From NCBI GenBank assembly GCA_963924555.1, contig OZ004583.1, positions 9,066,582 through 9,130,581 of the forward strand: a stretch of DNA of 64,000 nt, written 5' to 3'. Under the pieces are notes generated by a model. It had not been told where the DNA came from. It ran no database searches and saw nothing but the letters and a program-made list of their open reading frames with translations. The first letter of the stretch is position 1. Each line of letters opens with the position of its first letter. The stretch is from Crambe crambe (lineage: Eukaryota; Porifera; Demospongiae; Poecilosclerida; Crambeidae). The translations under genes and the position numbers were made by a program. Of the stretch, positions 1-64,000 are shown one piece after another.

Positions 1-1987
1 CTTTTATAAGCTTGAATGCCATACTGGACTCGTCTCCTTCATTGAGGTCTGAGGACATGAGACGAGTGACCAAGACTCCAAAGAGGCCTTTTGGACAGTG
101 ATGGCACTTGAAGCCAATAACCAGTGGTGAAATGTCAGTTTGTAAACACTCTTCACCTGAGATAGGGACATGATCGAGAACACCTGGAATGAAATATTTT
201 TCATTGCTTATCTGAGCAACTATCCGAAGTCGAGTAAGAATTTTCAAGAAGTCTTCATGCTTAATATCCTTGCTATCAAGGACTATGTCAATGATCGATT
301 TTGTAATAATGCCTTTCTGTACATCACGTGCATCAGAGCCAGCAAATTTCTCAAAGGGATTAGGAAAAGTTTTAATGACAAGCTGAGTAAGCTTCTTGAA
401 AAGAATTTGAGGTTCTCTCACTACAATTTCCTCTAAGCCTTCAGTATTATAGTGTCTTATGACACCCATTCTGATATGGAGAAACTGTAAGAGCTTAAAC
501 AAGGCAGCATTCCCAGTGATGCCATACCTGGCTGCCATAAGTCTACATTTATCGAGATCAATAACATTATCTTTAAGTCCCTGTAGCTCAAGATAGAACA
601 GGAGATAACCCAAACGATACTTAATGCTGAACCAGTTGTAATTTTTTATCAGTTCATTGACTTTATTCCGAATAGAATCAAAATCTTTGGGATCATCAGA
701 TATATTACTAACCGTAAACATGACAGTTTCTTTCTCTGGTCTATTGTCTGCATACTGAACAAGGTCTTGAAAACCATTTACTTCAATCAATGATTTCAAA
801 TCTTTATTCAACTGGCTTATTCTCTCTTCAGCTGAGTCATGAAGACGATCTTTGTGCGTGCCAATGATGAACACGAGAGGTTGATGTGCCTGTGTTTCTA
901 CTTTACCACCAACTGTTATGTCCATAGCATATACACTGGCCAGGCACTGGAGTAAGGCTTCTTTAATGGAAATGGACGATGTATAGCAATTACTAGACTC
1001 GTTGGCATTCATTCTGTACTTGATTTCGAATTTAGAATTTATGTCTTGATCCAATTTGAGGACAAAAAAGAATATGGATGGACCATTAATTAAGAGGGGC
1101 AACATTTCTTGAAACTCCACCTGACCTCCAGTGTCCCTGAGGTACACAATACCGTCACTTTTACAATTTAGAAATTTTTCGAAGCCATATTTTTTTATGA
1201 TACCTGCAGCATCAACAGGTTTATCAAAGGCCTTAGGTTCTTTCTTCATCATTGCACGAGTATGAATATTCTCATCTACTTCCATGCTCTCAGATGGCCC
1301 ATCATCTATTTCCATACTTTCAGCAGGCAGAGGTGTTGCACTTTCAGGAGTTTCATCTTCTGATGGTGTAAACGATGCAGTTTCTTCAACCCTTGTTATT
1401 GAAGCAGATTTAGAATCAAGATGCTTACTTTTCTTTTCCCTTTTTTTCTCCTGTTTTGGTATTGTACTCACTGTCTGTACTAATTGTTGTACAGCAGATT
1501 GATCGTGTTCCCTTTTATCCCATTTTCCATAGTCTTCTTGGATCAAAGCCATGCACAATTTTCCTTGACTGAGATCAAGGTTAACATGGACTGGAATGGC
1601 ACTATCACAAATATCAGTTGAACTGCTTCTACCCGTTTCATTTTCACCCTCTGAGTTCTTCCTTGGTGGTTCACCAAGAAGACGGTCCATTAACGAGCTT
1701 TTACCGAAGCCTGGGGGACCAATAAACATAAAATGTGCCATTTTCCTCACAAACTCTTCATCGTTAGCTTTAGCTTTTTCTATTTCCTGGATAAAACTGT
1801 TTGACATAGTGTTTAATACTATTTTGGGAATAGATAATTCAAAAATTGTAGCACTCTCTGAACTTAGCCCGGACAGATTTAACTGAGGTATATTTGGACT
1901 GTTGAAATTCTCATTGAAAAATATCACTATTACATCATATTTGTGAGCATTCAATCTTTCAGTAGGATGGATACATCTCGCCAAAAC
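1..1987 (-). CDS. Roc/COR-like GTPase, partial (runs off left edge)
   Basis: One long open exon on the minus strand, starting after an AG acceptor at about 1987 and still open at base 1. It carries a P-loop (FIGPPGFGKSSL), a long charged Ser/Glu/Lys-rich insert, a DTGGQVEFQEMLPLL switch II motif, and a G4-type motif IGTHKD. A COR-like region follows (DLDKCRLMAARYGITG, then EGLEEIVVREPQILF), ending in a CHHCPKGLFGVL segment. Every block matches the exon at 8276-10432, so the two are tandem paralogues in the same orientation. Roc-COR GTPases (LRRK, DAPK, MFHAS1 families) act as dimeric signalling switches; the specific role here is unknown. The N-terminus lies upstream and was not found. The C-terminus, which may hold Death/ZU5 domains as in the paralogue, lies outside the window. 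Confidence 0.8.
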
Positions 1988-2431
1988 CTGTTAAGATAAT
2001 ATTTAATGTTTATATGGTAAGAGAGAGCTATACCATACTCATGCATTATTAGGCGTATGTGCTAATTTCCACAGGAAACAAACCACCACTTAATAGCGAG
2101 TACGCACGTAACAGCGAGATGATTTTGGGTTAGAGTATCACATGATAATGCTACAAAGAAATTTAATTCCATGCAGAAATACACTTTTTTAAGTGACTGA
2201 GGTAAGTTCGAGTTACCAAACCAGCCAGAAGAAGCAGAAATAGAGCTTATAGCAAGGAGTGCTTAAACAAAGGGTAGTTAGAGCAGCAAGGAAACCAGCG
2301 GCTAACAATGAATATGCACTTACGGTGCACAAATAGCAACAGCTCTCAGGTTCTAAATTCGTGCTTACATAAGATTTTCTATAGCCTAGTGGTCTCATTA
2401 TGACGTGCAATGATGCTTTGATGTGCTACAA

Positions 2432-4229: not shown

Positions 4230-4964
4230 GTGGATTGCAGTAATCTTGCAACATGAAATGCAGAACACTACACCAAAATTTACATAGCCTCCTTTCAAAC
4301 AGGCACATAGTAACCAAGGCATGCGCTAGTACAAGTACTAATTAACCACAAACACTACCGCGCTAAAATAACAGATAGTAAACACAATAGCAGCTGCTGC
4401 TTTGGCACATGTAAAATCCATGCTAGCATGAATAATGAACAAGTCATTGCAACTCAGAAACTATGCATGGGAATGGGCCAATATTTTGCATATGGCAACT
4501 ACTTGATAAGGTCTAAAAAGTTACATTTTGCTTTAGTTTATAGCTAGTACAGAATGTGCAGGACACAAGATCCTATGTGGATAAATTGAAAAGTAGAATG
4601 TGAATTGACAAAAACTAAATGTAATTCTTATGGCAATAAGTATAAGAAGCTGTATATCAAAAATCAGCCATTGATTCCAAGTGGATATTGAGATGTAACG
4701 CAGTTTACGTTGAGAATGGAATCAGTCATAACATCAGTCATTTTGATTGGTCCTCCTTTATTTTTTGTGTATGTAGTACTATTCTGATACTTAATAACGT
4801 GATGCAAGTTAGAAATTTCTATCACGAATAGTTTTTAAGTTAATTTTCCCTAGCAACCATGCGTGGGCGGAGTGTGCCTGCACCCTTAATTGTGGCTTTA
4901 GAGTTGGGCTACTTAAAAGGAGGCTATGTAAATTTTGGTTTGGTCAGATCACTGCAATCCACTG
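4230..4964. mobile_element. Tc1/mariner-type MITE, 735 bp
   Basis: Imperfect terminal inverted repeats start CAGTGGATTGCAGT at 4230 and end ATCCACTG at 4964, with TA on both sides, the usual target duplication for this superfamily. A subterminal block AAATTTACATAGCCTCCTTT is also inverted. No transposase frame inside. Shorter relatives lie at 16026-16170 and 16941-17100. Confidence 0.75.
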
Positions 4965-5177: not shown

Positions 5178-8100
5178 CTAAAGTAGAGAGACTTCAGTTG
5201 GCACTTCGTAGCAAGAAACTAGCTTCTCTCGGAAATAATGTTCATTTAGCTTTTTTTTCATTTTCCTACTTGATATGTGGTTGTCCTTGAAAACAAAAAG
5301 ATCAACTACCAGCTATCATAGACTGGAAGTAACCTTCAATAATTAAATCACTTACTGCAGATGGATTAAATTCCACCCCCTCTTCCGTGCTTTTGAGGTT
5401 GATTTGGTTGATTTTCTGATTTAAGATCATACTTCTCTTTTCTTTTGCTTTTGATACAACCTGGTACATTTTATGAATCACCTCATCACAGTACTATAAG
5501 ACAGAAATATCTTGGTCAGGAGCATGTAGTCAATTAAATCAAGATAGCTTATACATAGTATTATATGTTTCATTTGTTATATCATAAAGCACTTACTTTC
5601 CTATAAATAGGTTGCTCCACACAGACACAAAAAACTGCTGCACGATAAGAGTCATCACTATCTTCAATAGGATACAATCTCAGAGAATATATTTTGTCAC
5701 CTGTATAATAACGTTCCATTAACTTCTCATAGTACTATATATATCTTGAAAAGGGGTCTGAAAAGGTATAGAGAACCAACTCCCTCCTTTTAACAAATCT
5801 ATAGAACCTTCCTTTATATCATGCAATATTGTATGTACATGCATGTCATCATACCTTGAAAGTGATATGGTGCAGGTATTGAAGCTGATCTTTTATTTCT
5901 TCCTATCTGCAATATTTGCTCTGATTTTAGATAAATATCTCCTTTCTGCTCTTTCAATTTAAACCTTCCAGCTGTAATCTTCTTGAAGATATAGATAGGT
6001 TTCTTTTCATGGTATTCTGGAGTGGAGTTGGCAGATAGGAATACCATGTCTTCACAGTCCTTCTCACTCTGCAGACTTGCATAGTGTTGGATACTGATCA
6101 TCACCTCTTTCTTCAGTTGGATGAGGTAGGCTGGACTAACTGGCTCATGCCCATCGGGTATTTTGAAAGGACCGGTTAGACAGGGATGAACCATCAGAGA
6201 TACTTCTACATTATCCACAGAAGATACAGATATGCCTAAATCTGACATATCTGTAGATGAAGTGATTTCTACTGGATCTCCATGAAATGTTATGCCCTGA
6301 TAGCTCGAGGGTATACCTTCAGCATCGGATGTAGCTATATGAAAACAGCAGGTTAACACTTCATTGTATACATATGTTTGCTAAAGTTTGATCGAGCAAA
6401 CTCTGGCAAAAAAACTTCAGCAAACTCTAGCAAACTGATCAAAAGAACTGTGTGCTGGAATAATACATTATAACATGCAACTGATATCAAAGAACCCAGC
6501 ATAGTAGAAGATACTCACATTTCTTGATTTTTTCTGCTACTCTTTCGAGTTTGATTTTCTCGAGGGCATTTATCAAACTGGCCCAAGTGGGTTGACCACT
6601 GGTGGCAACAATGTTGTCAGCACCATTTAGCCATCTTTCCACCAAATCGTCACAAAGCATAGTCATCTTCTTAAGGTTCGGCCAATGCAATCCCAGAGCT
6701 GAACCAAGTTTTAGAAGCTCTTTGTTAGTCAGGTCAGATAGACACTCGGTCACTTGAAAGTGGTCTTCCATGCCTATATGGCAACAGTAAAGAGTTTGAG
6801 GTAATAGAAGTCAATACTTTACTCCTCTAGGTGATGAATATAAAGTTATTATCATGCAAGACTTAGCCTGCACAACTCAAAGTTACTGAAATTAATACGT
6901 ATGACATACAGCAGATAAGGGATACACAAATCTGGTAAAGATGTTCACCACACTGTATCTATACACTATTATTATAATTTACCCAGAGCAGTATTCAGAA
7001 CTGATGGTTGAAGTCCTTGGAAATCTGAAAGGTGAAGTCATGGCTGTAAGTTAGCCTCATTCCCAGGCCTTATTAAAATAAGGGCCTGGTATCTCCTTAT
7101 TTTAATAAGGCCTGGGAACGAGGCTAGGCTGTAAGTTAGCATCATACTTGCTACTGTGTTAGTCTCTCATACTTTGATATTTATTGGTAATTTTTTCAAA
7201 GAGTACGTAATCCATGGGTTTCACAGCCTCTGCTAGTCTCCTCCAACTTGGCTTGCCATGCCTGTCATGGTCGTAGTTCAGTTTGAGCCACTCCAATAGA
7301 GCTTGGAAGAGACACATCATGACATCCCGATGATTACTCTCAATCCTCTCCAGCACTGAATATCTGAGACCCAGCTTGGTGGCCAGATACTTCCAATTGG
7401 GGGATAAACTTTCAACAGAGTTAAGCACTTCATAATGATCATCAGCATCTACAAGGACAGATAAGTAGTTCTGCTGTCACCAAGTAAGACCCTTTACCAA
7501 ATAACACCGACCCAAGAGGAAATTTGCCAGCTAAATAGCTACCACTGTGCAGATACAATATTGGTAAAGGGGAAAGTCATCTTTTTCATGGCTAGGAAAG
7601 TATGTTGCAGAATCTGCACTATATACTGTAAAGATGATATTACAATGTTTATAACAGGAGGCATAGCTAACTCATTTGGCATTAGATATTTAGGTTATTA
7701 TCTTAAGTTCAGATTATCGTATGGCTATTGAAAACTACACATTTTTCAACTAGTAAGGGATTCACAGAATAATTGCAAGCCACACTATATTATGATCTAT
7801 TGATCAGTAGTTTACCTAGAGTAGTATTCAGAACTGATGGTCGAATTGCTGGATCTGGCTCACTGCAATCTGAAAGGTGAAACCATAGCTGTAAACTAGC
7901 ATTCTTATGATCACTTAAAAGAGACATGGGTAAGTCTATAAGGCTCACATTTAGGAAGAAGGGATAGTCCTTTATTATTAGATCCCTTACCCTGACAAAA
8001 GGATGAAAACATGCACCTTAGATCATTGAGTGAAGGCCTTTAACCTGACCACTAGCACATGGATGAAAATCTAGTTATCCATAATGTTACCTTTTAAGGA

Positions 8101-10432
8101 ATCACTTTTTCCATACAATTCTTCATTTGCTGAAAAAATAAAGAACGAAAAAAACAAACAAAAAACAAAAAACAAAAACAACTTATAAATATAAAGGAAG
8201 ATGAATCTGGGCCCAAATGATGGCTTCCAGTTTTGTACTCCTATAGCTAGCTAGCTGTCAGTAATTTGTACTCACCTTTAGGTTGGAACCAGACAAGGTT
8301 GTCTTCTGATAAAATACAGATCTCATGCTTATTGCTGCAGTACATGAAGTAGTCTCCTTGCCTCCAGCCTTGATATTGGACATGATGATTCGATGAACAC
8401 AGTTCACACTTGCAACAAAAGTAATGTTGGGTCTTGCCACTGTCGTATCGAAGATCCTTTACTGAAGAATGGATGCTCTTCTCAATAACTTCACGAATAT
8501 CGTTACATAGATAACTGATGTGAGTGTGTCTTGAACTGAGTCCAAATGGATGTAGAACTACTTTCAAATGGGAGGAGAAAAATCTCAGAGTTAATCTGTC
8601 TAAAAAGGGACCGATGCTGAAGGTTACTTGGTCCCTGAAGATGGAGTCAGGTGAAAGCTCCCACTTAAGCTTGCTATGGACTGTAAGTAAAGTGTTGATT
8701 AAAACACCAAATATCCCCTTGGGGCAATGACTGCATCTGAACTCAATGTAGAGTGTGGGGATGTTAGAAACTGGTTCAGGTCTTTGAGATGCCTGGACGT
8801 GGTTAAGGACACATGGGATGAAATATCTGTCCTCTTCATCTTCTGATGTGGTGATTTGGGATATGATGCGGAGATGCACCAGTAATCGCAAGAATGAATT
8901 TGGATCGATGCCATCTTCTGCTGTTATCACTTTCTTGAAAATCGAAGCTGAAATAATGCCCCTATGCTTAAAATCGGAAAATTCTCGTCGAAAAAGCCGA
9001 TTTGAAGAAAATGTCTCAATGATGAGGTCCGTAACTTTATTGAAAAGCACTCGAGGTTCTCGTACGATGATGTTATGCAAGCCTTTGACAGGAAAATACT
9101 TGATCCTTCCAATTCGGGTATGGAGAAATTGCAATAGATGCTTTACTTGGTCTTTACTGATGCCATACTGAGCAGCTAGACCCACACATTCATCAAAAGA
9201 AACTATGCTCTTCTTCAAATTTTCCAAATCAAGGCTGAACTGCATGTAACTGATAGGATAGTCAATGGCAAACTGATCTCCATCGATTACTATTTCACTG
9301 ATTCTTGTTCGAATGCATTCAAAGTCTTCCTCACTTGCACTGTAATTATCAACAGTGAACATCAACCTGTTGGATAGCTGATCTGCATACTGAACCAAGT
9401 GCTGGTATCCATGCCTATTGATTAAATCGTTCAACTGTCGGTCTATCTCACTGATTTTCTCTTCAGCATTGGAACCAAGCAGATCCTTGTGTGTGCCTAC
9501 GATGAAAACTAGAGGTTGGTGGGTCTTGACTTCACTTTGGGCAGTTACGTCCATGGCATCGATACTAGCAAGGCACTGCAGCAGAGCATCCTCTGTGCTG
9601 ATGGAAGATATGTACGAATTGATAACTGTTCTGTCTTTTTTCTGATACGATATTTTGAATTTGCTGCGGAGATCTTGATCGATGCGAAATAGGAAGAAAA
9701 ATATGGATGGTCCAGATATCAGGAGAGGCACCATCTCTTGAAATTCCACTTGACCACCAGTATCAGTCAAATAAATTGAATAGGAGTTCTTTAGATACTT
9801 TTGAACTCTGCTGTAGCCATATTTTCTTATTACAGACGAAATGTTCTGGATTGATGGTGAAGGTGGTGGTTGCAAGAGTTGTCTCCTGGAGAGATCTACT
9901 CCATCACTTGTTAACATTTCTGAAGTGATGGAGCCACTGGTTTGACACGGATTTTCAGGTTGTGATACATGTGGAGATGCTACTGGTTGAGGTGGAGCAA
10001 TCATAGTGGTGCTAGTCTGCACTGGTGATGCACTCTCACTAGTAGTGGATGGTGCAGGAGGAGGCACTGCTTTGGGTGTCATTGCTTTTGGTGTGATAGT
10101 TATGCTTTCCTTGTTCATTTGCCTCACAACAGACACCTCAAACTCGGCTTCGGACCACTCCCCATCCTGTAGAACTGTAACTGATGCATGTTTGGCAGAA
10201 GAATCTTCTATTCCAACATCCACTATAACGACAGGCTCACAGACACCAGTGGAGGGAGAGAAGTCCTTTAGTTCTTTGCGAACAAGGCGAGTGATTAACG
10301 AACTCTTTCCAGAACCAGGAGAGCCTAGAAAGACGGAATGGACTAATTTTCGTTTTATCACTCCAGATTTGTTGATGGCTTCTTGAACCACTTCAAGAAA
10401 TTCTTTTTCATCTACTTCATCCTCATGGTCTC
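5178..10432 (-). CDS. Roc/COR-like GTPase with two death-like domains and a ZU5-like domain
   Basis: Ten exons join in phase: 10432-8276, 8129-8091, 7869-7816, 7448-7173, 7024-6983, 6773-6519, 6334-5855, 5700-5597, 5493-5356, 5285-5178 (stop), about 1217 codons. The large exon has a P-loop (FLGSPGSGKSSLITRL), a Pro/Thr/Ser-rich insert, a DTGGQVEFQEMVPLL switch II motif and G4 motif VGTHKD. A COR-like region (RIGRIKYFPVKGL, VREPRVLFNKV) and a CSHCPKGIFGVL segment follow. Exons 7448-7173 and 6773-6519 each encode a death-fold-like helical domain (LATKLGLRYSVLERIE; LGSALGLHWPNLKKMTML). Exon 6334-5855 resembles ZU5 (SLMVHPCLTGPFKIPDGHEP). The first exon starts in phase 1, so an upstream N-terminal exon is missing. 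Roc-COR-Death occurs in DAPK and ZU5-Death in UNC5/PIDD; this order is unusual. A signalling or death-pathway role is inference. Confidence 0.8.
7040..7139. mobile_element. Intronic foldback element with about 13-bp target duplication
   Basis: Two 32-nt arms (7052-7083 and 7095-7126; TAGCCTCATTCCCAGGCC against GGCCTGGGAACGAGGCTA) flank an 11-nt loop and would form a near-perfect hairpin. GGCTGTAAGTTAG occurs on both sides and looks like a target-site duplication. It sits in the intron between exons 7173-7448 and 6983-7024 of the Roc/Death gene. Confidence 0.7.
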
Positions 10433-18754: not shown

Positions 18755-18928
18755 GTCTAGATCTAGCTAGCACATGTCACAACTAGCTAGCTACTACGTG
18801 CTCGCTAAATTTAAGACCATTGCATGCATTACAGGTTCAGGTTGGTTGACACAAAATTTGCCGACTGTGCAGAATTAAATTCGTGCTCGCAAAATTTAAG
18901 ATCATTGCATTTATATTACAGTATATTA

Positions 18929-22270: not shown

Positions 22271-23275
22271 TTACAAATAGCCAGCATGTGATATGTGTCC
22301 AATGCAGTCTTGTTGTGAAACCATACTGAACAGCATGCTCAGTAGTGCTCTGGTGCATGATGAAACTTCAAACAGTGTGTAGTTCTCTTTCATCATACCC
22401 TTCACCTGACTAAATACACCTTCCACAGGATTGAGGTCTGGTGAGTATGGTGGTAGGAATATCAAGCGTGCACCTATTCCTTCAATCAAATCTTGGACAG
22501 CATCGACATGGTGCACACTTGCATTATCCATGATCACTACTGAATGAAGATTAATGCCATTGAAGGGATTTAGAACAGGTAGTAGACATGATTCAACAAA
22601 TTGTGTAAATCGGTTGCCATCTATTGTCCCTTCTGCAAGATACACATCGTGAATGCCTGCTGAGGAAACAACAGGTATGGCAGAGTAACGGATTCCTCTA
22701 ACAAGAAGGCGTTGGTCACACAAAGGGATTCCCCTAATGCTGTACCCATACTTCCTCACAGTGTTTCGTTTGTCACATCCACTCTCATCCAACCAAACTA
22801 GCATTGCAGGATCATATACGGAGATGTCTGCAATGAATTGGGCTCTTAGAGTATCTGATCTTTGAAGAGCTATGCGATACATGACCTGTCGTGTACAACC
22901 CATTCTCTTTAAGGCTCTACAAATGGTGCTTAGTGAGATGCTAACTCCAAAAAATCCCTCTAGCTTTTTCTGAATTTCCTTGAGATAAATCCCTGGATAA
23001 TCAAGAATTAGCTGCAGTAATTTGAGTTGCTCAAATTTATCTAGTAGTGGTGATGGTCCATGAGATGCCTGTACAGATTCCACCTCTCCTGTCTGCTCAA
23101 ACATCAAGACATACCTTTTTACTGTTCGCTCACACACACCAAAAATTTCAGCTATTTGAACAGAAGAAAGATTCTGTGAAAGATAAGCCCATATAATCCG
23201 CCATCGAAGATCTAGTGAATAAGGACGAGGCATCTCGAAATTCAAATTTCCCTGTCTTGCATTGCGCATGCTCAA
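22271..23275 (-). CDS. IS630/Tc1-type DDE transposase
   Basis: Single-exon 334-aa frame. The N-terminal helix-turn-helix (SLDLRWRIIWAYLSQNLSSV, then QIAEIFGVCERTVKRY) is followed by a second HTH-like part. The DDE core shows LDESGCDKR (first Asp), VIMDNASVHH (second Asp) and LPPYSPDLNPVEGVFSQVK (Glu), with 34 residues between second Asp and Glu, so DD34E. The length is normal for the superfamily. It lies within CAGTGA-TIRs with TA flanks, as expected. An alternative ATG inside (PRPYSLDL region) could be the true start. The open frame suggests recent activity. Confidence 0.9.
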   Translation of the reverse strand: MSMRNARQGNLNFEMPRPYSLDLRWRIIWAYLSQNLSSVQIAEIFGVCERTVKRYVLMFEQTGEVESVQASHGPSPLLDKFEQLKLLQLILDYPGIYLKEIQKKLEGFFGVSISLSTICRALKRMGCTRQVMYRIALQRSDTLRAQFIADISVYDPAMLVWLDESGCDKRNTVRKYGYSIRGIPLCDQRLLVRGIRYSAIPVVSSAGIHDVYLAEGTIDGNRFTQFVESCLLPVLNPFNGINLHSVVIMDNASVHHVDAVQDLIEGIGARLIFLPPYSPDLNPVEGVFSQVKGMMKENYTLFEVSSCTRALLSMLFSMVSQQDCIGHISHAGYL

Positions 23276-23471
23276 TGGGGGTTGGACAACCTACCGGAAA
23301 ATCACTGTATTGTGCTCGCTCAAATTTATTTTGCACATGCGCAAATTCTACTGGTCATCAACCAACCTGACGTTTGCGCATGCCCGCTACATGGTCGCCT
23401 CCTCTACATCGCGCGCTAGCTAGCTTGCTAGCTAAGAGTAGCAGAGGCTGTGAATGAGTATGGTCTGTTTG

Positions 23472-25289: not shown

Positions 25290-27814
25290 GGGGCATGGAA
25301 AATAGAAAGGGTCCTTAGGGTTATTCTGGTGGACAACGAGATAAACACCAAAATGTATTTTTAAGTGGTTCTAAAGCTTGAAAATGGCCATTTTCCTCTG
25401 GGCTATCAGATATAAAGTGGAATTTTACTGCCTTTTCAATAATGAAGTGGAAAAATGGTGTTTTGAGAAAAAAACATTTAAAGATAGAAAATGAAGTTTG
25501 TGTATAAAAGTTTGGAAAAGTGACTTCAAAAAAATTTATGGTTCTGGACAGGTTATATCTTGATATTCCTCATTAACAAACCGGCGAATTTGCTCATACA
25601 AATATTTTTTTCGTTCTGGTGTTAGTCCGGCAGGAGGTAAAATAGAGGGAATACGAGCACGTTTGACATTTGTTAACCTTACTCCCTGTTTTAGGATATC
25701 AACCTTTGTTTCACTGGAGTTCCAGGATTTACGAACATATACAATACCTGGTTCAGCATTATGCATCCGAAAATGTTGATATTTGGTAATGCCTGGGATC
25801 TTCTTGAAATATTTTAAGAAGAAAACATCCCATTCTCGCCATCGCCAATCATATAATTGAGGAATATTATTAGCACTGGACCTTCTAACAACTTGAGCCA
25901 TTTGATCCAATGTATCAGTCTCTGACTGACGATAAATCTTCTTGATTAAACCAAAATGACCATCCACTAAACATCTAGTATGCCCAACACGCATGAAAGA
26001 GAGAGTAATTTTTTTGTGTTTCCCTTTTATTATACGCCATGCCAAATAGCCGATAACATAGTTATTTTTGTTCTGGCCTACACAGTTATCACAATGTAAG
26101 TGAGATTCTTCCTCTTTCAGAGAATGTTTAGTAAAGTAATGGTCAAGCATTGATATGACAGAATTTGGCCCATGGGTAGTACTACCATTAAATCCAATGC
26201 TGTTGTCCTCATCAATGAGATAATTGATTTGCTTTCTGTTGCTATCACAACAAATACCAAATAATTGAATTTTTCGGCATACCTTGAAGTAAATTGGCCC
26301 AACTTGACGTGAATGATGAGGAATATGAACCTGCTCAGCAAAATCAAAAGTATAGTGAGCATATTTTGGTTTCGATTGAGTGCCCAAGACCTTGGCTAAC
26401 TCTGCTTCTGATTTCTTCATTGAATCAAGGTAATAATCCCGCTCCTGTTGTGCCATTGTAATATGCAGGCTAAAGTCTGTGGTATATTTTATTTTTTCTT
26501 CTTCATTTATAGCATTTCTCAGTTTATAGCGAACGTTTTCACAGGTAGCACACACATCTGACCGGGGGGTCATAAAAAACAATATCTGGTAAACATTTCT
26601 TCCACATTTGAGTAAATGACTTATACTTCAAAAAACGTGCATGTGGATCCTTAGCTTGACATGCTTCCACATATTTGGAGTGAACAATCATATAGTTTTG
26701 TGATGCAGGGAGGTAAATTGGAGGGTTTTTTGCTCGTCCAGACCTTGCTGCTGGCTGAGGAATTCCATAAACTTCAGCATAATTACGAATAAAGCGAGCC
26801 CCTTCGCTGACAATACTATAGGGGTATGTGGTAGCAGGCATACGACCAATTAAACCATGCTCTCGAGCAATAGGGCCATTATTTCGAAGATGCTTTTGTA
26901 AATTTTTCAATTGTTTAGTACCAATGTCATGCAATAAAATAAAAGCATCCTTACACACACTACGATAGTCGAAGTGATAATCACATGTAACTCATTTACG
27001 TTTTCCAGGGTGTACTCGATTAGCATGATGCACTGAGCTCTCATTACGAGAGAGAACATGAAGTTTCCCCAAAATTAACATGTCCTTTTCAGTTTTAGTC
27101 ATTTCACGCAGTGACAGAATAAAGGAGTATACTTCAGCAACAGTAAACTGTGACAGGCAATTACTTGAACAGGAACAAGTTGAATCAATTTTGCTGGTTA
27201 GTTTAGCATGGAGTGGGTCACTATCTGGAGTGATCAGGCTAGAGTTTAAACCCTCCCCAGGAGTATCACCCTCTTCATCAGATCCTGAATCACTCTCTAG
27301 CTGTTCAGAAGCTCTTAGTATTCTAGTCTCTAACTCAATATCATCAATAATACCTTGTTCTTCAACTTCCTCCTGGTCACTTTCATACTCACTGCCTTGG
27401 TTCTCTTCTGATTCACACTGCTCACCAAAAAATTCTTCATCTTCACTCTCTAAGTGAGTTTGTTCTTCTGGAGTGAGCCCATACACAGCTTCACTGCTAG
27501 CTACACTCATACTTGTAACCTTCAGCTGCTTTGTGGTTAGTGGCTGGCCATGTGCTTTAGCTTGCGGTTCATGGTCATGTGCGCGTGCTTATGTAAACGG
27601 AGCCAAACCATATCCTAGAGATTACTACACTAGCGCGAGTGAGTAAAATTAAACTTCTAGCGCATAAATAGAGCAATTCTGCAATCTAAGGTAACCAAAG
27701 AATAAATTTCTGAAGAAAAACAATTTTTCAAAAAAATGACCTTTTGCACTATATTTGGGCATACTTTTAAACAACCTTTTTAACCCTAAGGACCCTTTCT
27801 ATTTTCCATGCCCC
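25290..27814. mobile_element. DNA transposon with perfect 34-bp TIRs inserted in a receptor exon
   Basis: The 34-bp TIRs at 25290-25323 and 27781-27814 (GGGGCATGGAAAATAGAAAG and its complement) are identical. ATAT flanks both ends, compatible with a 4-bp target duplication, though the palindrome makes the exact border ambiguous. It carries one transposase-like gene on minus. It sits inside the exon 25178-28019 of the neighbouring receptor pseudogene. Confidence 0.85.
25536..27510 (-). pseudogene. Transposase-like protein (DNCxGQNKNN family), lightly broken
   Basis: Three collinear frames seem to form one protein. 27510-26992 has an acidic N-terminus and a small Cys cluster (CSCSSNC); it ends at a TGA after HPGKRK. 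Reading continues in the same frame (VTCDYHFDYRSVCKDAFILL) to about 26570, with ARFLKYKSFTQMWKKCLPDI. A one-base shift at a TTTTTT/CCCCCC site then leads into 26582-25536, which has CxxC (CATC), HCDNCVGQNKNNYVIGY and GHTRCLVDGHFGLIKKIY. The D-N-C-x-G-Q-N-K and G-H-T...D..F-G motifs belong to an uncharacterised family of eukaryotic transposon proteins (DUF7869-like, from memory). An RNase-H-fold transposase role is inferred. The stop and frameshift suggest the copy is dead or the assembly has errors. Confidence 0.7.
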
Positions 27815-57292: not shown

Positions 57293-57412
57293 GCAAATGT
57301 ACTACAATAGGTACGGGTCGACATTATGATCCGAACATCATAACTGATGACGTCATAATTACTTTTGCATCAAAAATGCAGCCGGGGGCGCGGGCGGATC
57401 CAGAGAGTAGCT
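57293..57412. promoter_or_regulatory. Bidirectional promoter with CRE, XPC / kinase-Kelch
   Basis: Only about 120 bp separate the XPC start (57292, minus) from the likely kinase start (57413, plus). A perfect palindromic CRE, TGACGTCA, sits at 57348-57355, the ATF/CREB site. No TATA box at a convincing distance. The site and its flanks (AACTGATGACGTCATAATTA) are kept in the duplicated promoter at 60724-60731. Confidence 0.6.
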
Positions 57413-59455
57413 ATGTCAGCAACACGATTCAAGAGGATCCAGTTGTACAAGAAGGACGTACTTGGAATCGGTTCTTACGGTTCTGTCTGTAAAGCAGAGT
57501 GTGATGATCTCAAATGCGCAGCTAAAATCATTCACCCGACTTTGATAACTGACAATCCAGCTGAAAAATCACCCCAGGGCAGATTCAGGGCGGAATGCGA
57601 GTTCCTGAGCACTCTGCGGCACCCAAACGTGGTGCAATACCTAGGAACATGGCAAGATCCAGCCACTAACCTTCCTGTGCTGCTGATGGAGCTGATGGAT
57701 CAGAGCCTGACCCACTTTTTGGAGAAATCCCATCGAATTCCTCTCTACACTGAAATCAGCATCTGTCACGACATTGCTCTGGCACTATCCTTCCTCCACT
57801 CCAATGGCATCATCCACAGAGATCTCTCTAGCAATAATGTCCTGATGATAGGAGATGTCCGAGCTAAAGTCACAGACTTTGGCATGGAAAAATTCAGTGA
57901 CTTGCGATCCTCAATGAATGTAAAGCATACATCCTTCACACTTTGTCCAGAAACTGATGCATACATGCCTCCAGAGGCTGTAAAAGATAATCCAAAATAT
58001 ACAGAGAAGATTGATTGCTTTTCTTATGGTGTCCTTATCATTCAGATCTTGAACCGCAAGTTCCCCAATCCTGGTGAGAGAGTGAAAACTGTGTTTGTGG
58101 GAGGGAGAGAGTTATTAGAGCTGCAGTCAGAGCTCAGCAGAAGAGAAGAGGACATCAATGCTGTGGATGCCAACCACCCATTGTTAATTGTTGCTCGTGA
58201 TTGCCTTAAAGATAAGGAGTCTGATCGTCCTTCAGCCACTGTGCTCTGTGACAGAGTCGAAAATCTGAAGGAAGCTGCTCACAAGAAAGAAACATTAGCT
58301 GGTGAGAAAGATCATGAAATAGACCTACTTAAGAAAGAATTCGAGGAGAGAATTCAATCTCTAGAAAGAGCAAAGAATGAAGTTATCAAGGATCTTCTAG
58401 AGAGATTGAGCAACATCGTTGTATCAAAAGATAAAGTTATCGAGGATCTTCTAGAGAGATTATCAATGAGCGATGTTCAGGAAATGGTCAAAGAGATCCA
58501 GATAGAAGCAAAATCTGATATTTCAGAAGAGAAACCTGTTGTAATTGATCCTTCTGAGTGCACTCTGCGTTGGAGGAAAGGTACCGATGCTCCACTTGCC
58601 ATGATCCGTTCATCAGATGCCGTAGTGTGTGGGAAGTTTGTGTACATGTATCAGGGTGTTAGAAGAGAAATATTGGCATATGATTGGCAAGCTGAATCCT
58701 GGTCAAAGCTACCTCCCTGTCCAACAAGTTACTTCACTCTGGCTAAAGTAAAGAACAGCCTAACAATAATTGGTGGTCATGATCATGATGGAGAGAAAAC
58801 CAACAAGCTCTACACCCTCACAGCTGCAAACAAGCGATACACGTGGTTTGAAACATACCCTCCCATGCCCACCAAGAGGAACAATACTGCCGCTGTTTCT
58901 TATGGAGAGCATCTGATAGTCATGGGAGGTGTAGGCAAGACCTTCTTGAATACCATTGAAGTTTTACAAGTAGAATCGAAACGATGGTTCACAGCAGCTA
59001 GTCTACCAATAACAGTAGAATTGTGCTCCGCATCTATTTGTAGTGATCACCTTTACATCCTGGGTGGGAAGAAAGAGTTCAGTCCAACAAATGAAGTTTT
59101 ATCCTGTTCTCTTGAAGCTCTAATTCATACCACTAGTGAGAAATCAGCTATGGAAGATGGAAAAGTATGGCAATTTCTTACACCCCATCCTTGCTCTTCA
59201 TCAACTTGCATCTCTTTTCAAAATCATCTTTTCAGTACTGGTGGGTGGTATGATGGCTGCCCTTCAAATGCTATCTGGATATATGACATCGACTCAAGAG
59301 TGTGGAAGAAATATGGCCAATTCAAACGGGCGAGATCTATATGCTTTGCTGCTGTACTTCCCAATTTTGATTTGATGGTTGTTGGAGGATATACTAGACT
59401 CTGGCAAAATGGAGAAACAAACTCTTCTGAAATAGCAACATTTGTTAGTACTTAG
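57413..59455 (+). CDS. Kinase-coiled-coil-Kelch protein, copy A1
   Basis: Single-exon frame, about 680 aa from the ATG at 57413 (MSATRFKRI). Kinase domain residues 12-280: G-loop GIGSYGSV (18-25), Lys38 (CAAKII), HRDLSSNN (135-142), DFG (155-157) and MPPE; the HRDLSSNN form is TKL-like. Coiled coil about 285-380 (KDHEIDLLKKEFEERIQSLE). About five Kelch-type repeats occupy 390-670 (IIGGHDHDGEKTNKLYTL, VMGGVGKTFLNTIEVL, TGGWYDGCPSNAIWIYD). Two unusual residues against copies A2 and B: DFGMEK for DFGMAK, and CPETDAYMPPE for CPGTDAYMPPE. Both lie in the activation segment and may weaken activity. An upstream ATG at 57376 is out of frame and makes a short overlapping uORF. The substrate is unknown. 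Confidence 0.9.
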   Translation: MSATRFKRIQLYKKDVLGIGSYGSVCKAECDDLKCAAKIIHPTLITDNPAEKSPQGRFRAECEFLSTLRHPNVVQYLGTWQDPATNLPVLLMELMDQSLTHFLEKSHRIPLYTEISICHDIALALSFLHSNGIIHRDLSSNNVLMIGDVRAKVTDFGMEKFSDLRSSMNVKHTSFTLCPETDAYMPPEAVKDNPKYTEKIDCFSYGVLIIQILNRKFPNPGERVKTVFVGGRELLELQSELSRREEDINAVDANHPLLIVARDCLKDKESDRPSATVLCDRVENLKEAAHKKETLAGEKDHEIDLLKKEFEERIQSLERAKNEVIKDLLERLSNIVVSKDKVIEDLLERLSMSDVQEMVKEIQIEAKSDISEEKPVVIDPSECTLRWRKGTDAPLAMIRSSDAVVCGKFVYMYQGVRREILAYDWQAESWSKLPPCPTSYFTLAKVKNSLTIIGGHDHDGEKTNKLYTLTAANKRYTWFETYPPMPTKRNNTAAVSYGEHLIVMGGVGKTFLNTIEVLQVESKRWFTAASLPITVELCSASICSDHLYILGGKKEFSPTNEVLSCSLEALIHTTSEKSAMEDGKVWQFLTPHPCSSSTCISFQNHLFSTGGWYDGCPSNAIWIYDIDSRVWKKYGQFKRARSICFAAVLPNFDLMVVGGYTRLWQNGETNSSEIATFVST

Positions 59456-59510
59456 CTAGGTGTCATGAGCTTTGATAATATATATGTACCAAATACCAAT
59501 CTCGAGTATA

Positions 59511-59617
59511 CAGTGGAACCTCCAAGTAAAGGGGTTGTCCTTTTCTTGAATACTAGTGCTATGATTGTAAAAGAGCACCCTTTATTGGGAGGTTGTCCTT
59601 TATCGGAAATTCCACTG
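59511..59617. mobile_element. Small Tc1/mariner-type MITE
   Basis: Ends CAGTGGAACCTCC and GGAAATTCCACTG, TA flanks, internal inverted GGTTGTCCTTT. A similar end, ACAGTGGAATTAATAACAGA, and the motif GTTGTCCTTTA occur at about 53137-53230. Confidence 0.6.
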
Positions 59618-59739
59618 TAGAATAGAAAGCAGTTGCTTTCCAAATATGCAAAGACTGAGGCATATTAGGGATTGGGCCGGGGGTAGTACCTACCCATTTA
59701 AGGTGCTCACATGACTTTTACAGATAGAAAGAAGAGCTA

Positions 59740-60045
59740 ATGGCTGACTCGAAACTGTCCAAAGATTTTGGTTTTAAATCTATAAAGCTCTTGAAAGAGG
59801 AGTCCCTTGGATCAGGTTCCTATGGCACTGTCTGCAAAGCAATGTGCGACAACTTGCTCTGTGCTGCTAAACTCATGAACTACATGTTCAACAAGAAAGC
59901 TGATCTCATGGCTTCATTCGAGAACGAGTGCGAGGTTTTGAGCAGTTTACGCCACCCAGCATCTAGGAACCTACCAAGATCCTTCCACGAGCCTCCCGGT
60001 GCTGCTGATGGAGCTAATGGATCAGAGTTTGACTGACTTTCTTGA
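59740..60045 (+). pseudogene. Kinase B', truncated at duplication junction
   Basis: Starts MADSKLSKDFGFKSIKLLKE with G-loop SLGSGSYGTV and Lys (CAAKLM), nearly the same as the gene at 63050. An 11-bp deletion after the HP of SSLRHP shifts frame. The sequence then stops matching kinase at about 60045, where XPC exon sequence (minus orientation) begins. No HRD or DFG motif remains. Confidence 0.85.
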
Positions 60046-60660
60046 CAACTATGAGACACAAAGAGTTGTGCCTTGGAGACTCTCCGAAGTCCCAACAATT
60101 CCCTCCTTGCCGCCACTTAGAGAAAATCACTCTCAGCAGCAAACCACCTGACCATCTTGTGGAAGATTTTGCTGGAGTCCTTCGTGCATTTAGGGATCAG
60201 TTCACACATTCCTTCAGGGACCATCGATAGGAGTAGGGCTTGGAGGGTGTGGTCATTGCACTGTCCACTGAGGAACAGACCTCGGCTCAACAGGCATAGA
60301 AGGTGGGCTTTATGGAGAGCAAGACGGTGCGCTCTCTCAAATGCTGAGAGAGCTTTTTCCAAAAGACTTTGTGCCTTGTCTTTACTGTGTGGTTTATTAA
60401 TAAAATGGTAACTGTAAAACTTACTTCTATTCACATACAGTACTACCCACCCCTTTCCTCCCTTGCCACGCCCATCTGTAGGCACCACTATCTCGAGGGA
60501 ACCCTCACCTCTACACTTTCCATCTTCTCCTTTACCTAGTGGGAAGAGATTGTGGGTTATTAGATACACACTGAACTTTGATACTCAATCTAGCTACATA
60601 CTAGTAAACGTACTGTTGTCAACTTCTTCCCATTCCACCTCACCCTCTGAACTCTCCATG
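60045..60660 (-). pseudogene. XPC 5' fragment, duplicated
   Basis: Duplicate of XPC bases from about 56716 to 57292: [14 protein letters not shown]-type first exon near 60658, then the LEIVVPTDG exon, then [20 protein letters not shown] onward. It has small changes (a shortened SSKIFHKMVRWF, a stop after AESDFL) and ends at the junction near 60045. It lacks the BHD domains, so it cannot make XPC. Confidence 0.85.
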
Positions 60661-60740
60661 CAAATGTACTGTAATAGGTACGGGTCGACATCATGAATCC
60701 CAAATAATGCACATCATAACTGATGACGTCATAATTACAA
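60661..60740. promoter_or_regulatory. Duplicated bidirectional promoter with CRE
   Basis: Copy of the XPC/kinase promoter, with TGACGTCA at 60724-60731 preserved and small indels around it. It would now drive kinase A2 and the truncated XPC copy. Confidence 0.55.
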
Positions 60741-62816
60741 ATGCAGCCGGGGGCGGATCCAGCTATGTCGGCAACACGATTCAAGAGGATCCAGTTGTAC
60801 AAGAAGGACGTACTTGGAATCGGTTCTTACGGTTCTGTCTGTAAAGCCAAGTGTGATGATCTCAAATGCGCAGCTAAAATCATTCACCTGACTTTGATAA
60901 CTGACAATCCAGCTGAAAAATCACCCCAGGGCAGATTCAGGGCGGAATGCGAGTTCCTGAGCACTCTGCGGCACCCAAACGTGGTGCAATACCTAGGAAC
61001 ATGGCAAGATCCAGCCACTAACCTTCCTGTGCTGCTGATGGAGCTGATGGATCAGAGCCTGACCCACTTTTTGGAGAAATCCCATCGAATTCCTCTCTAC
61101 ACTGAAATCAGCATCTGTCACGACATTGCTCTGGCACTATCCTTCCTCCACTCCAATGGCATCATCCACAGAGATCTCTCTAGCAATAATGTCCTGATGA
61201 TAGGAGATGTCCGAGCTAAAGTCACAGACTTTGGCATGGCAAAATTCAGTGACTTGCGATCCTCAATGAATGTAAAGCATACATCCTTCACACTTTGTCC
61301 AGGAACTGATGCATACATGCCTCCAGAGGCTGTAAAAGATAATCCAAAATATACGGAGAAGATTGATTGCTTTTCTTATGGTGTGCTGATCATTCAGATC
61401 TTGAACCGCAAGTTCCCCAATCCTGGTGAGAGAGTGAAAACTGTATTCGTGGGAGGGAGAGAGTTATTAGAACCACAGTCAGAGCTCAGCAGAAGAGAAG
61501 AGGACATCAATGCTGTGGATGCCAACCACCCATTGTTAATTGTCGCTCGTGATTGCCTTAAAGATAAGGAGTCTGATCGTCCTTCAGCCACTGTGCTCTG
61601 TGACAGAGTCAAAAATCTGAAGGAAGCTGCTCACAAGAAAGAAACATTAGCTGGTGAGAAAGATCATGAAATAGACCTACTTAAGAAAAAATTCGAGGAG
61701 AGAATTCAATCTCTAGAAAGATCAAAGAATGAAGTTATCAAGGATCTCGAAGAGAGATTGAACAACACCGTTGTATCGAAAAATAAAGTTATTGAGGATC
61801 TTCAAGAGAGATTATCAATGAGCAATGTGCAGGAAATGGTCAAAAAGATCCAGATAGAAGCAAAATCTGATATTTCAGAAGAGAAGCCTGTTGTAATTGA
61901 TCCTTCTGAGTGCACTCTGCGTTGGAGGAAAGGTACCGATGCTCCACTTGCCATGGTCCGTTCATCAGATGCCGTAGTGTGTGGGAAGTTTGTGTACATG
62001 TATCAGAGTGCTGGAAGAGAAATATTGGCATATGATTGGCAAGCTGAATCCTGGTCAAAGCTACCTCCCTGTCCAACAAGTTACTTCACTCTGGCTAAAG
62101 TAAAGAACAGCCTAACAATAATTGGTGGTTATGATCATGAAGGAGAGAAAACCAACAAGCTCTACACCCTCACAGCTGCAAGCAAGCGATACACATGGAT
62201 AGAATCATACCCTCCCATGCCCACCAAGAGGGACAGTGCTACTGCTGTTTCCTATGGAGAGCATCTGATAGTGCTAGGAGGATTGGGAAAGAGTTTCTTG
62301 AACACCGTTGAAGTGTTACATGTCAAATCAAAAGAATGGTTCACAGCAGCTAGTCTTCCATTAATGGTGGCATCATGCTCAGCATCCATATGTAATGATC
62401 ATCTCTTTATCCTTGGTGGGACAACAGGTATCACCACTTTGATAAGGAGCACCATTTCTTGTTCTCTTGGAACTCTCATTCATAAAAGAGCTACGCCAAA
62501 CCCGAATGGAAAAGTGTGGCAGTATCATGCAGCTGTCCCTTATAATCGAGCTACTTGTGTCTCTTTTCAAGGTCATCTTTTTGCTATCGGAGGTTACAAT
62601 AGCATGGATGATTCCCCCCAAAACAGCATCTGGATTTATAACATGGATTCAAACAGTTGGAAGAAATACGGCCAATGTGAACAGGCTAGATATCTTAGCT
62701 TTGCTGCTGTACTTCCCAACTGTGAGCTAATGCTAGTTGGAGGATACATAGGACCCTTTACACAAGAAGAAACAAGCTCTGTTGAAATAGCAACGTATAC
62801 ACCTAAACATTAATAC
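60741..62816 (+). CDS. Kinase-coiled-coil-Kelch protein, copy A2
   Basis: Single-exon frame, 690 aa from the ATG at 60741 (682 aa from the ATG at 60765, which aligns with the A1 start). Same layout as A1: kinase, coiled coil, Kelch. The catalytic set is normal: GIGSYGSV, CAAKII, HRDLSSNN, DFGMAK, CPGTDAYMPPE. The kinase half is almost identical to A1. The Kelch half has diverged more, especially after HLFILGGTTGITTLIRS and near AIGGYNSMDDSPQNS. Unlike A1, the upstream ATG is in frame here. This is probably the better-preserved enzyme of the pair. Confidence 0.92.
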
Positions 62817-63049
62817 ATCATGTACCAACTATGTATTTCCAATTTTTCTTTATTAGCCCTTTATCCAAATTTTCTACTTGATATTTGAAACATTATATGG
62901 AGCTAATCTTGAGTGACCCTTTCCAAATATGTGAGGAGTCTTACATATTAGGGATTGGGGTAGTGCCCACATGACTTCTACAGTGATTAGTATTTCAAAT
63001 AAGTGACTGAGCTGAAAGAGTTAGCTGTAGCTAACTATAGAGTGAAAGA
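62817..63049. other. Intergenic gap between tandem kinases
   Basis: Resembles 59456-59739 in part (AGGGATTGGG near 62951; ACATGACTT near 62971), as expected for a duplicated unit, but lacks the MITE. Confidence 0.5.
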
Positions 63050-64000
63050 ATGATGACTGAATCAAAATCCTCCAAAGAGATTGGTTTTAAATCTATAAAG
63101 CTCTTGAAAGAGGAGTCCCTTGGAGCAGGTTCCTATGGCACTGTCTGCAAAGCAATGTGCAACGACTTGCTCTGTGCTGCTAAACTCATGAACTACATGT
63201 TCCTCGACAAGAAAGCTGATCTCATGGCTTCATTCAAGAATGAGTGCGAGGTTTTGAGCAGTTTACACCACCCTAACATCATTCAGTATCTAGGAACCTA
63301 CCAAGATCCTTCCACAAGCCTCCCGGTGCTGCTGATGGAGTTAATGGATCAGAGCTTGACTGACTTTCTTGACAACTATGAGACGATTCCTCTCCACAAA
63401 CAAGTCAACATCTGTCATGATATTGCTCTGGCACTATCCTTCCTCCACTCTAATGGCATCATCCACAGAGATCTCTCCAGCAACAACGTCCTGATGATAG
63501 GAAACATCCGAGCTAAAGTCACCGACTTTGGCATGGCTAAGATTTGGGATAGGAATGTCCAGGCATCAGAAAGATCATTGACCAAACATCCAGGCTGTGA
63601 TGTGTATATGCCCCCTGAAGCAATGTTTGAAGGATCTCAATATTCAGAGAAACTGGACACCTTTTCCTTCGGTGTCATCACAATACAGATCCTAACACAA
63701 CAGTATCCACAGCCTGGGAAGCAGTTTAAAACAGTGTATGTCAGTGATCCTTGCTTTCCCAATGGGATCGAAACACGGGCCACTGAAGTGGAGAGACGAA
63801 AGGATCACATTGACCTGATCGAGCCAAATCATCTCCTGCTACCAATGGCCCTCGATTGTCTTAGAGATAAAGATACTGACCGACCGTCCTCCAAGGATCT
63901 CTGCCACAGTGTGACCACTCTCAAAGAGACTTCCCAATATATTGACAGCAAAGTCAGTGCCAACACAGATAAATTAATGGAAGACATTGAGAAACAGGTA
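63050..64000 (+). CDS. Kinase B, partial (runs off right edge)
   Basis: Open from the ATG at 63050 to the window end, 317 codons, a TKL-like kinase. G-loop SLGAGSYGTV, Lys (CAAKLM), HRDLSSNN, TDFGMAKIWD, MPPEAMFEGS, then DRPSSKDLCHSV and the beginning of a helical region (KVSANTDKLMEDIEKQ). Related to A1/A2 but clearly a separate paralogue, with a different activation loop and helix G. A Kelch domain may follow outside the window. It is the source or sister of the truncated kinase at 59740. Confidence 0.88.
   Translation, partial: MMTESKSSKEIGFKSIKLLKEESLGAGSYGTVCKAMCNDLLCAAKLMNYMFLDKKADLMASFKNECEVLSSLHHPNIIQYLGTYQDPSTSLPVLLMELMDQSLTDFLDNYETIPLHKQVNICHDIALALSFLHSNGIIHRDLSSNNVLMIGNIRAKVTDFGMAKIWDRNVQASERSLTKHPGCDVYMPPEAMFEGSQYSEKLDTFSFGVITIQILTQQYPQPGKQFKTVYVSDPCFPNGIETRATEVERRKDHIDLIEPNHLLLPMALDCLRDKDTDRPSSKDLCHSVTTLKETSQYIDSKVSANTDKLMEDIEKQV

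Follow-up and report, generated by a model that had tools for sequence, protein, structure and literature searches.

Do the GTPase, Death-type and ZU5-like exons that lie side by side in the genome of the sponge Crambe crambe encode one protein, and to which family would such a protein belong? The window, as we call the whole stretch analysed (64,000 nucleotides of contig OZ004583.1, assembly GCA_963924555.1, referred to below as C5), carries on its minus strand, from 10432 to 5178, ten pieces with GT/AG splice sites that join into 1216 codons with no internal stop and end at the TAG at 5180–5178 (Table 1). We assign the locus to a family of ROCO proteins (Roc-COR GTPases) that is very large and is associated with death-fold adaptors. 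It is a variant of the ROCO-Death proteins that perhaps arose by local fusion: judged from the DNA, the order Roc-COR, two Death-type domains (DD1 and DD2), ZU5 and UPA may be carried by one transcript, in some or all transcripts of the locus, a reading to which we assign a probability of roughly 0.5. The genome searched comprises 143 Mb in 119 contigs, and as the searches score the best candidates only, all family counts given here are lower bounds.

A Roc-COR GTPase exon and two Death-type exons

The COR-A domain of exon 1 lies above its Pfam cut-off (E 3.2e-9; 37.3 bits against 35.3), while the Roc domain lies below it (E 1.5e-4; 22.4 bits against 27), perhaps owing to an insert of ~100 residues, rich in proline, serine and threonine (P/S/T), that splits the domain. 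The motifs GSPGSGKSS, DTGGQ and THKD, which we take to be G1, G3 and G4, are intact, and their key residues are common to this and a second Roc-COR copy in the window. Roc motifs are present and COR follows directly after Roc, as in the ROCO family. A PDB search with the Roc-COR sequence returned five matches with E values of 0.11–0.68, four of them GTPases and none a ROCO structure. In one copy of the family (L025), the P/S/T-rich insert (10056–9901 in the window) is tandemly repeated in units of ~156 bases within a frame of 946 codons. After COR, a stretch rich in cysteine and histidine was noted by eye at 8430–8290, with similar stretches in relatives (CFRCDRC in L057 and CFKCENEDC after the second Roc-COR of the window); it may form a zinc site.

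Exons 4 and 6 probably encode Death-type domains. DD1 matches Pfam Death above the cut-off (E 2.2e-6) and DD2 below it (E 0.012). Searches of the PDB with profiles gave weak matches for both. Those of DD1 (seven rows, E 0.19–0.45) were to RIPK1, CRADD and THO subunit 1; those of DD2 were to LRDD (PIDD; E 0.073) and PIDD-CC (E 0.1), both over a short span of 19 positions. Weighing against the assignment of DD2, no more than three of the 12 sequences aligned for it have a match to Death with E up to 0.1. The DNA around exon 3 (7900–7780) resembles that around exon 5 (7055–6948).

The pattern of substitutions indicates that exons 1, 4, 6 and 7 are, or recently were, coding, and points to purifying selection on Roc-COR and ZU5. 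For exon 1, the ratio of nonsynonymous to synonymous substitution rates (dN/dS) was 0.25–0.38 against 13 of 18 relatives in an array on C5, leaving out L013, L023, L025, L026 and L033, one of which has a stop. In pieces of 80 codons the ratio was 0.17–0.34, except at codons 81–160, in the insert, where it reached 0.93. Mean dS against the same 13 relatives rose from ~0.10–0.12 in the first 160 codons to 0.78–0.92 in the last 160, as if parts of 10432–8276 had been exchanged by conversion or recombination. Against the three nearest relatives, the proportions of nonsynonymous and synonymous differences (pN and pS) were 0.09–0.13 and 0.21–0.30 for exon 4, and ~0.06 and 0.22–0.24 for exon 6. Exon 7, compared with ten relatives, none of which contains a stop, gave a pN of 0.27–0.37 and a pS of 0.61–0.77. 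A chance open reading frame was considered for the locus and not adopted.

The first two bases of exon 1 belong to a split codon, the exon offers no usable ATG, and seven relatives align at its acceptor. Because it opens in phase 1, an upstream exon is missing from the gene model. Ten of the 15 minus-strand frames of at least 60 residues between 10530 and 18766 were scanned for this N-terminus and gave no Pfam match, and the one ankyrin stretch of the C3 locus L047 used as a query had no match in the window. A search of 5 kb upstream for the first exons of a C5 copy returned a death-like frame, 5.5 kb away. The conserved DNA on the 5' side of exon 1 was considered as a place for the start codon and rejected, as its alignment with seven relatives is rich in insertions and deletions and looks intron-like. 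At the opposite end, exon 10 matched only itself in the whole genome at E up to 1, and we regard it as a doubtful exon that should not be adopted as the proven end of the gene. A preliminary description of this DNA had stated that the ten exons close in phase as one protein; the exon placement, GT/AG sites and compatible phases hold, whereas the closed protein is not confirmed, exon 1 having no usable start and exon 10 no relatives. The description also overlooked both the second Roc-COR frame (1990–2) and a competing tail exon (6454–6417).

Table 1 Exons and competing features of the locus, with positions in the window
Feature	Position	Strand	Remarks
Exon 1	8276..10432	-	2157 bases; Roc GTPase with long P/S/T-rich insert, COR, Cys/His-rich end; opens in phase 1
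Exon 2	8091..8129	-	Short linker, phase 1-1; some C5 relatives have similar DNA
Exon 3	7816..7869	-	Short linker, phase 1-1; resembles exon 5
Exon 4	7173..7448	-	Probable Death domain 1 (DD1); Pfam Death; nearest C5 relatives 72–81% identical
Exon 5	6983..7024	-	Short linker, phase 1-1
Exon 6	6519..6773	-	Probable Death-type domain 2 (DD2), alone below Pfam cut-off; three nearest relatives 86–87% identical
Competing 3' tail exon	6417..6454	-	Homologous to tail of C5 relatives; ends at TGA 6419–6417
Exon 7	5855..6334	-	ZU5 by homology; five in-frame losses against relatives
Exon 8	5597..5700	-	UPA-like part 1, phase 1 to 0; place and phases as in C15 copy
Exon 9	5356..5493	-	UPA-like part 2, phase 0 to 0; place and phases as in C15 copy
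Exon 10	5178..5285	-	Last exon of the preliminary description, stop TAG; doubtful; no relatives in genome
Second Roc-COR open frame	2..1990	-	Passes left edge of window

A large ROCO family with varying neighbours

Pfam COR-A returned at least 149 matches above the cut-off (among the 150 of 339 candidates that were scored). None of the 150 rows has an internal stop, and in 145 of them the open frame spans 369 codons or more. Searching with exon 1 yielded 70 rows, or 61 loci once nine fragment rows were merged, and the second Roc-COR of the window was not among them. Besides the window itself, these loci comprise the C5 array of 18 copies at 4.6–6.3 Mb (76–89% identity), which lies ~3 Mb from the window on the same contig, 22 copies on C3 (48–51%) and 20 others spread over C1, C5, C6, C12, C14, C15, C17 and C19.

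The succession of Roc-COR and Death-type exons, as given in the preliminary description, is well supported by this family: on C5, C15 and C17, as well as in part of the C3 and C14 copies, a Death-type exon is present within ~1 kb on the 3' side of Roc-COR. Among the 150 matches listed for exon 6, those immediately 3' of Roc-COR include most of the C5-array copies listed, two copies on C3 and one on C14.

The position of ZU5 is far less uniform. Within 4 kb and on the same strand, it was found 5' of Roc-COR at 28 of the 61 loci, 3' at two (the window and one locus on C15) and undetected at 31, as counted between the 61 Roc-COR loci and those 42 of 150 ZU5 rows that lie on contigs with Roc-COR loci. 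The C15 locus (L057), read from its sequence, has the order Roc-COR, DD, a 21-residue piece, ZU5, UPA1, UPA2, UPA3 and DD; its introns measure 112, 83, 65, 56, 313, 81 and 423 bases, and its phases agree with those in the window. The next copy on C15 (L064) has Roc-COR and two death-like frames. By reading, L047 on C3 has the order ankyrin repeats, ZU5, three UPA-like exons and Roc-COR. On C17, twelve ubiquitin repeats and Roc-COR share one open frame (L059 2–4861; G000:C17:1311501-1316360), a polyubiquitin-ROCO fusion that is followed 3' by a death-like exon (tblastn, 46.7% to exon 4; no Pfam match) and, further on, by a frame with an Nse-type zinc finger. On C5, locus L058 (G000:C5:9222500-9232200) has two Roc-COR frames, one preceded by ankyrin repeats and the other by PDZ domains, with a death-like exon after each; these are separate frames, which may be joined in RNA. 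As Death-type exons recur 3' of Roc-COR while the position of ZU5 varies, Death after Roc-COR looks like the common core of the family, and ZU5 like a movable part.

Tandem arrays of exons resembling exons 4, 6 and 7 also occur elsewhere, those of Death type on C14, C9, C16 and C18 and those of ZU5 on C3, C6 and C16 (among the 150 matches listed for each). Apart from this locus, the plus strand of the window at 57359–64000 contains three successive kinase-like frames, two with Kelch-like repeats, and the minus strand at 27588–22274 contains transposase-like frames (22274–23290 and 25539–27588), all identified by eye. The frames at 18766–18410 and at 4512–4988 of L058 have a GD(M/V)ELNPGP stretch, presumably a 2A-like motif, and probably derive from a mobile element.

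One gene or two around the ZU5 exon

Exon 7 had no match to Pfam. In an alignment of eight sequences, the other seven match Pfam ZU5 at E up to 0.1, exon 7 being the sole miss, and its identity to these partners is 40–57%. The ZU5-like exon of the preliminary description can thus be named ZU5, by homology to relatives and not by a Pfam match of its own. PDB searches with the exon 7 sequence and with its profile returned no matches. In place and phases, exons 8 and 9 correspond to the two exons that follow ZU5 in the C15 copy, and their sizes are similar. They had no tblastn match to relatives (four loci, E 1e-5), and therefore UPA is a tentative label; Pfam UPA was not found in the corresponding exons of relatives either. 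The stretch 1987–1811, ahead of the second Roc-COR, was considered as the missing third UPA exon and rejected, the likeness being by eye only and the exon profile having missed it; in the genome this stretch matched itself and three other places at E 0.16–0.32. At the position of RHFC in the C15 copy, exon 7 has KSEQ. As the HF(S/C) site is thus replaced, and HFS is what we take to be the self-cleavage site of PIDD-type ZU5, self-cleavage is not expected. The order in the window is not ZU5-UPA-DD, since the Death exons lie 5' of ZU5 and tblastn revealed none in the interval from exon 9 to the second Roc-COR.

Several features favour a single transcript. The linker, DD and ZU5 exons are all of phase 1-1, which permits splicing of one block to the other. 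Exon 7 lies 184 bases from exon 6 and has no ATG in the open frame ahead of it, which leaves ZU5 without a separate start. The tail exon with which three C5 relatives end is shortened in the window at a small inverted repeat with arms at 6424–6412 and 6389–6377, part of which matched once more in the genome, on C8; no AATAAA or ATTAAA occurs between the tail stop and exon 7. A Roc-COR-DD-DD block closely related to the C5 array stands directly 5' of a ZU5-UPA-like block, and under this reading exons 6 and 7 would be joined in RNA. The DNA shared with the C5 array extends, with gaps, from ~10950 to ~6430, so that in the simplest history a copy of an array block would have landed ahead of an older, ZU5-bearing Roc-COR gene.

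Other features weigh against a single transcript. In three C5 relatives (L013, L014 and L015), small tail exons with a stop directly follow the DD that resembles exon 6. The window keeps the acceptor of this tail (exon from 6454), which stops after 12 residues at the TGA at 6419–6417, 82 bases before exon 7. No ZU5 resembling exon 7 lies within 4 kb of the 18 array copies, and exon 7 is nearer to copies in which ZU5 comes first (52–57%) than to the C15 copy (40%). The 5' position of ZU5 is the commoner one (28 loci against two), and ~4 kb further 3' of the ZU5 block there is indeed a second Roc-COR. Moreover, exons 8 and 9 lack the tblastn matches expected of relatives' UPA parts, and a profile search of the window did not find the third exon that follows ZU5 in relatives (best E 0.76). 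Because three close relatives end after DD and the array copies have no ZU5 nearby, the ZU5 may belong to the second Roc-COR.

This second frame, on the same strand, is 38% identical to exon 1 over 594 aligned positions, and its Pfam scores (COR-A, 31 bits; Roc, 17.7 bits) are both below the cut-offs. Past it lies an exon with two death-like stretches (G000:C5:9065478-9066125, in L062), which match exon 6 by tblastn at E 2e-10 and 2e-13; in Pfam, Death scored 0.0054 there, below the cut-off and behind two unrelated weak matches. In a tree, the first Roc-COR clusters with the copies of the C5 array; the second is basal in a clade (local support 0.94) that contains the ZU5-first, C15, C14, C17, C1 and L058 copies. 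The gap before the second Roc-COR contains DNA at 4889–4500 that is repeat-like and 96% identical to L017. By eye, this DNA forms part of a mobile-element-like stretch with inverted ends (4968–4222), and a helicase-like fragment (2671–2432) was also noted in the gap.

Two neighbouring genes are accordingly possible, if somewhat doubtful: gene A, Roc-COR-DD-DD, would end at the tail exon, and gene B would consist of the ZU5/UPA-like remnant of an N-terminal half, the second Roc-COR and the two death-like domains. The tail shared with three array copies, the prevailing 5' position of ZU5, the split of the two Roc-COR frames in the tree and the closeness of exon 7 to ZU5-first copies all fit this division. 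Gene B, however, has no evident start, there being no in-frame ATG ahead of exon 7 and 82 bases between that exon and the tail stop, although an ATG inside exon 7 is possible; a third UPA exon for it could not be located in the window, and the sequence ahead of the second Roc-COR gave no match to UPA part 3; and the C15 copy reads Roc-COR-DD-ZU5.

Since both Roc-COR frames lie on one strand, splicing might instead pass over exon 10 and connect Roc-COR-DD-DD-ZU5-UPA with the second Roc-COR and the death-like domains beyond it, giving one long gene with two GTPase switches. The phase-0 donor of exon 9 would suit a phase-0 acceptor seen by eye just before 1987, and the lack of relatives of exon 10 and the repeat-like DNA in the gap are consistent with it. 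We consider this very unlikely: Roc-COR exons of relatives open in phase 1, for which an acceptor is present by eye at 1820–1819, the stretch after 1987 is unlike UPA part 3, and no proven double-ROCO gene was seen in the genome.

It is likewise improbable that the ZU5-UPA block is a decaying remnant between two living genes. Exon 7 has lost 19 residues in five in-frame gaps against L047, one of which covers IPEG, and the absence of sequence matches for exons 8 and 9, the missing third UPA exon and the repeat-like DNA downstream would suit decay. Exons 7–9, on the other hand, keep an open frame and canonical splice sites, and the excess of pS over pN in ZU5 also argues against a remnant, although it speaks for past more than for present constraint.

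We therefore retain the single transcript as the favoured reading. The claim that Roc-COR, two DDs and ZU5 form one protein gains from L057, which displays this order, and is weakened by the 28 loci with ZU5 on the other side and by the three close relatives that end after DD.

Possible mechanism and comparison with known systems

Roc-COR proteins are known for GTP switching and dimerisation, Death domains nucleate assemblies, and ZU5-UPA is able to hold a DD closed in UNC5-type proteins. In the protein predicted here, the missing N-terminus could act as a sensor, a function that ankyrin, ubiquitin or PDZ parts may have elsewhere in the family, and Roc-COR as a GTP-controlled, dimerising switch. 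Switching would release the Death domains, which would seed an assembly and recruit adaptors or caspases. ZU5-UPA may fold back onto the DD as a latch that works without self-cleavage, as the HF(S/C) site is missing in exon 7. The role would be immune or in cell death; neighbouring parts that vary from copy to copy resemble a pattern known in immune receptors. We tentatively suggest, as a possibility rather than an expectation, that the family is a second, NLR-like repertoire with a Roc-COR GTPase as the switch instead of a NACHT ATPase, in which symmetric phase-1 exons, placed around one large GTPase exon at well over 100 loci, would allow ankyrin, polyubiquitin and PDZ parts to be swapped as sensors, and Death and ZU5-UPA parts as outputs. 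The window would then represent a recent exchange that may have placed ZU5-UPA behind Death domains, or two GTPase switches in one chain.

DAPK has an N-terminal kinase, ankyrin repeats, Roc-COR and Death, in this order. Like DAPK1 and the placozoan ROCO proteins, which are linked to cell death, the locus has a Death domain on the C-terminal side of Roc-COR; it differs in that no kinase was found, that two Death-type domains are followed by ZU5 and that the family is far larger. In UNC5, ankyrin and PIDD the order is ZU5-UPA-DD. These proteins have ZU5 and Death parts, and tentatively the UPA-like ones, in common with the window, where, in contrast, the Death domains come ahead of ZU5, a Roc-COR GTPase is attached and the self-cleavage site is absent. 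DAPK, UNC5 and PIDD were each considered as a name for the locus and not adopted.

The NACHT receptors of sponges and cnidarians, including NACHT-Zu5, combine an NTPase switch, adaptor domains and a large repertoire, as the present family does, except that here the switch is a Roc-COR GTPase and not a NACHT ATPase. NACHT-Zu5 proteins are named in early animals, and COR is listed in the legend of an NLR figure (PMC12909245). From Amphimedon, 357 TRADD-N proteins are reported, most with one to three Death-like domains and variable partners; that study also names ZU5-UPA fusions for a related animal TRADD-N clade and regards AP-GTPase-COR proteins as switches of conflict systems (PMC8195603). Compared with the Amphimedon Death-TRADD-N proteins, the partner in the window is Roc-COR, with TRADD-N covered by general Pfam scans only.

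A parallel in expansion is the ROCO family of brown algae, whose members are candidate immune receptors: a survey gives each species between 9 and 47 genes, more by its own statement than other species have, with exon shuffling and a proposed role in immunity (PMC11378527). The algal genes, in that account, shuffle LRR exons inside one architecture, whereas in the sponge whole domains vary around the GTPase. Trichoplax, cited in the same text, has at least 17 ROCO genes, with LRR, TPR, CARD and death domains, and animals are credited with as many as forty ROCO domain combinations (PMC11378527). The repertoire found here appears larger than the highest count given there, 47 genes, although COR-A loci (at least 149) and Roc-annotated genes are not like for like (PMC11378527).

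Neither a Roc-COR-DD-DD-ZU5 protein nor a sponge ROCO expansion was among the top matches listed in the open-licence literature. The preliminary description had called the order undescribed; these matches do not contradict it, but the as many as forty animal combinations mentioned in the survey (PMC11378527), and the recurrence of the order in the genome, temper it. Its kind is already known; the order, and above all the scale, look new. The locus ties a GTPase switch to death-fold adaptors in an apparently early-branching animal. Were the family an immune repertoire, it would represent the GTPase-based equivalent of the NLRs, and a single genome could be used to examine how LRRK2, DAPK1 and other ROCO proteins acquired their partners.

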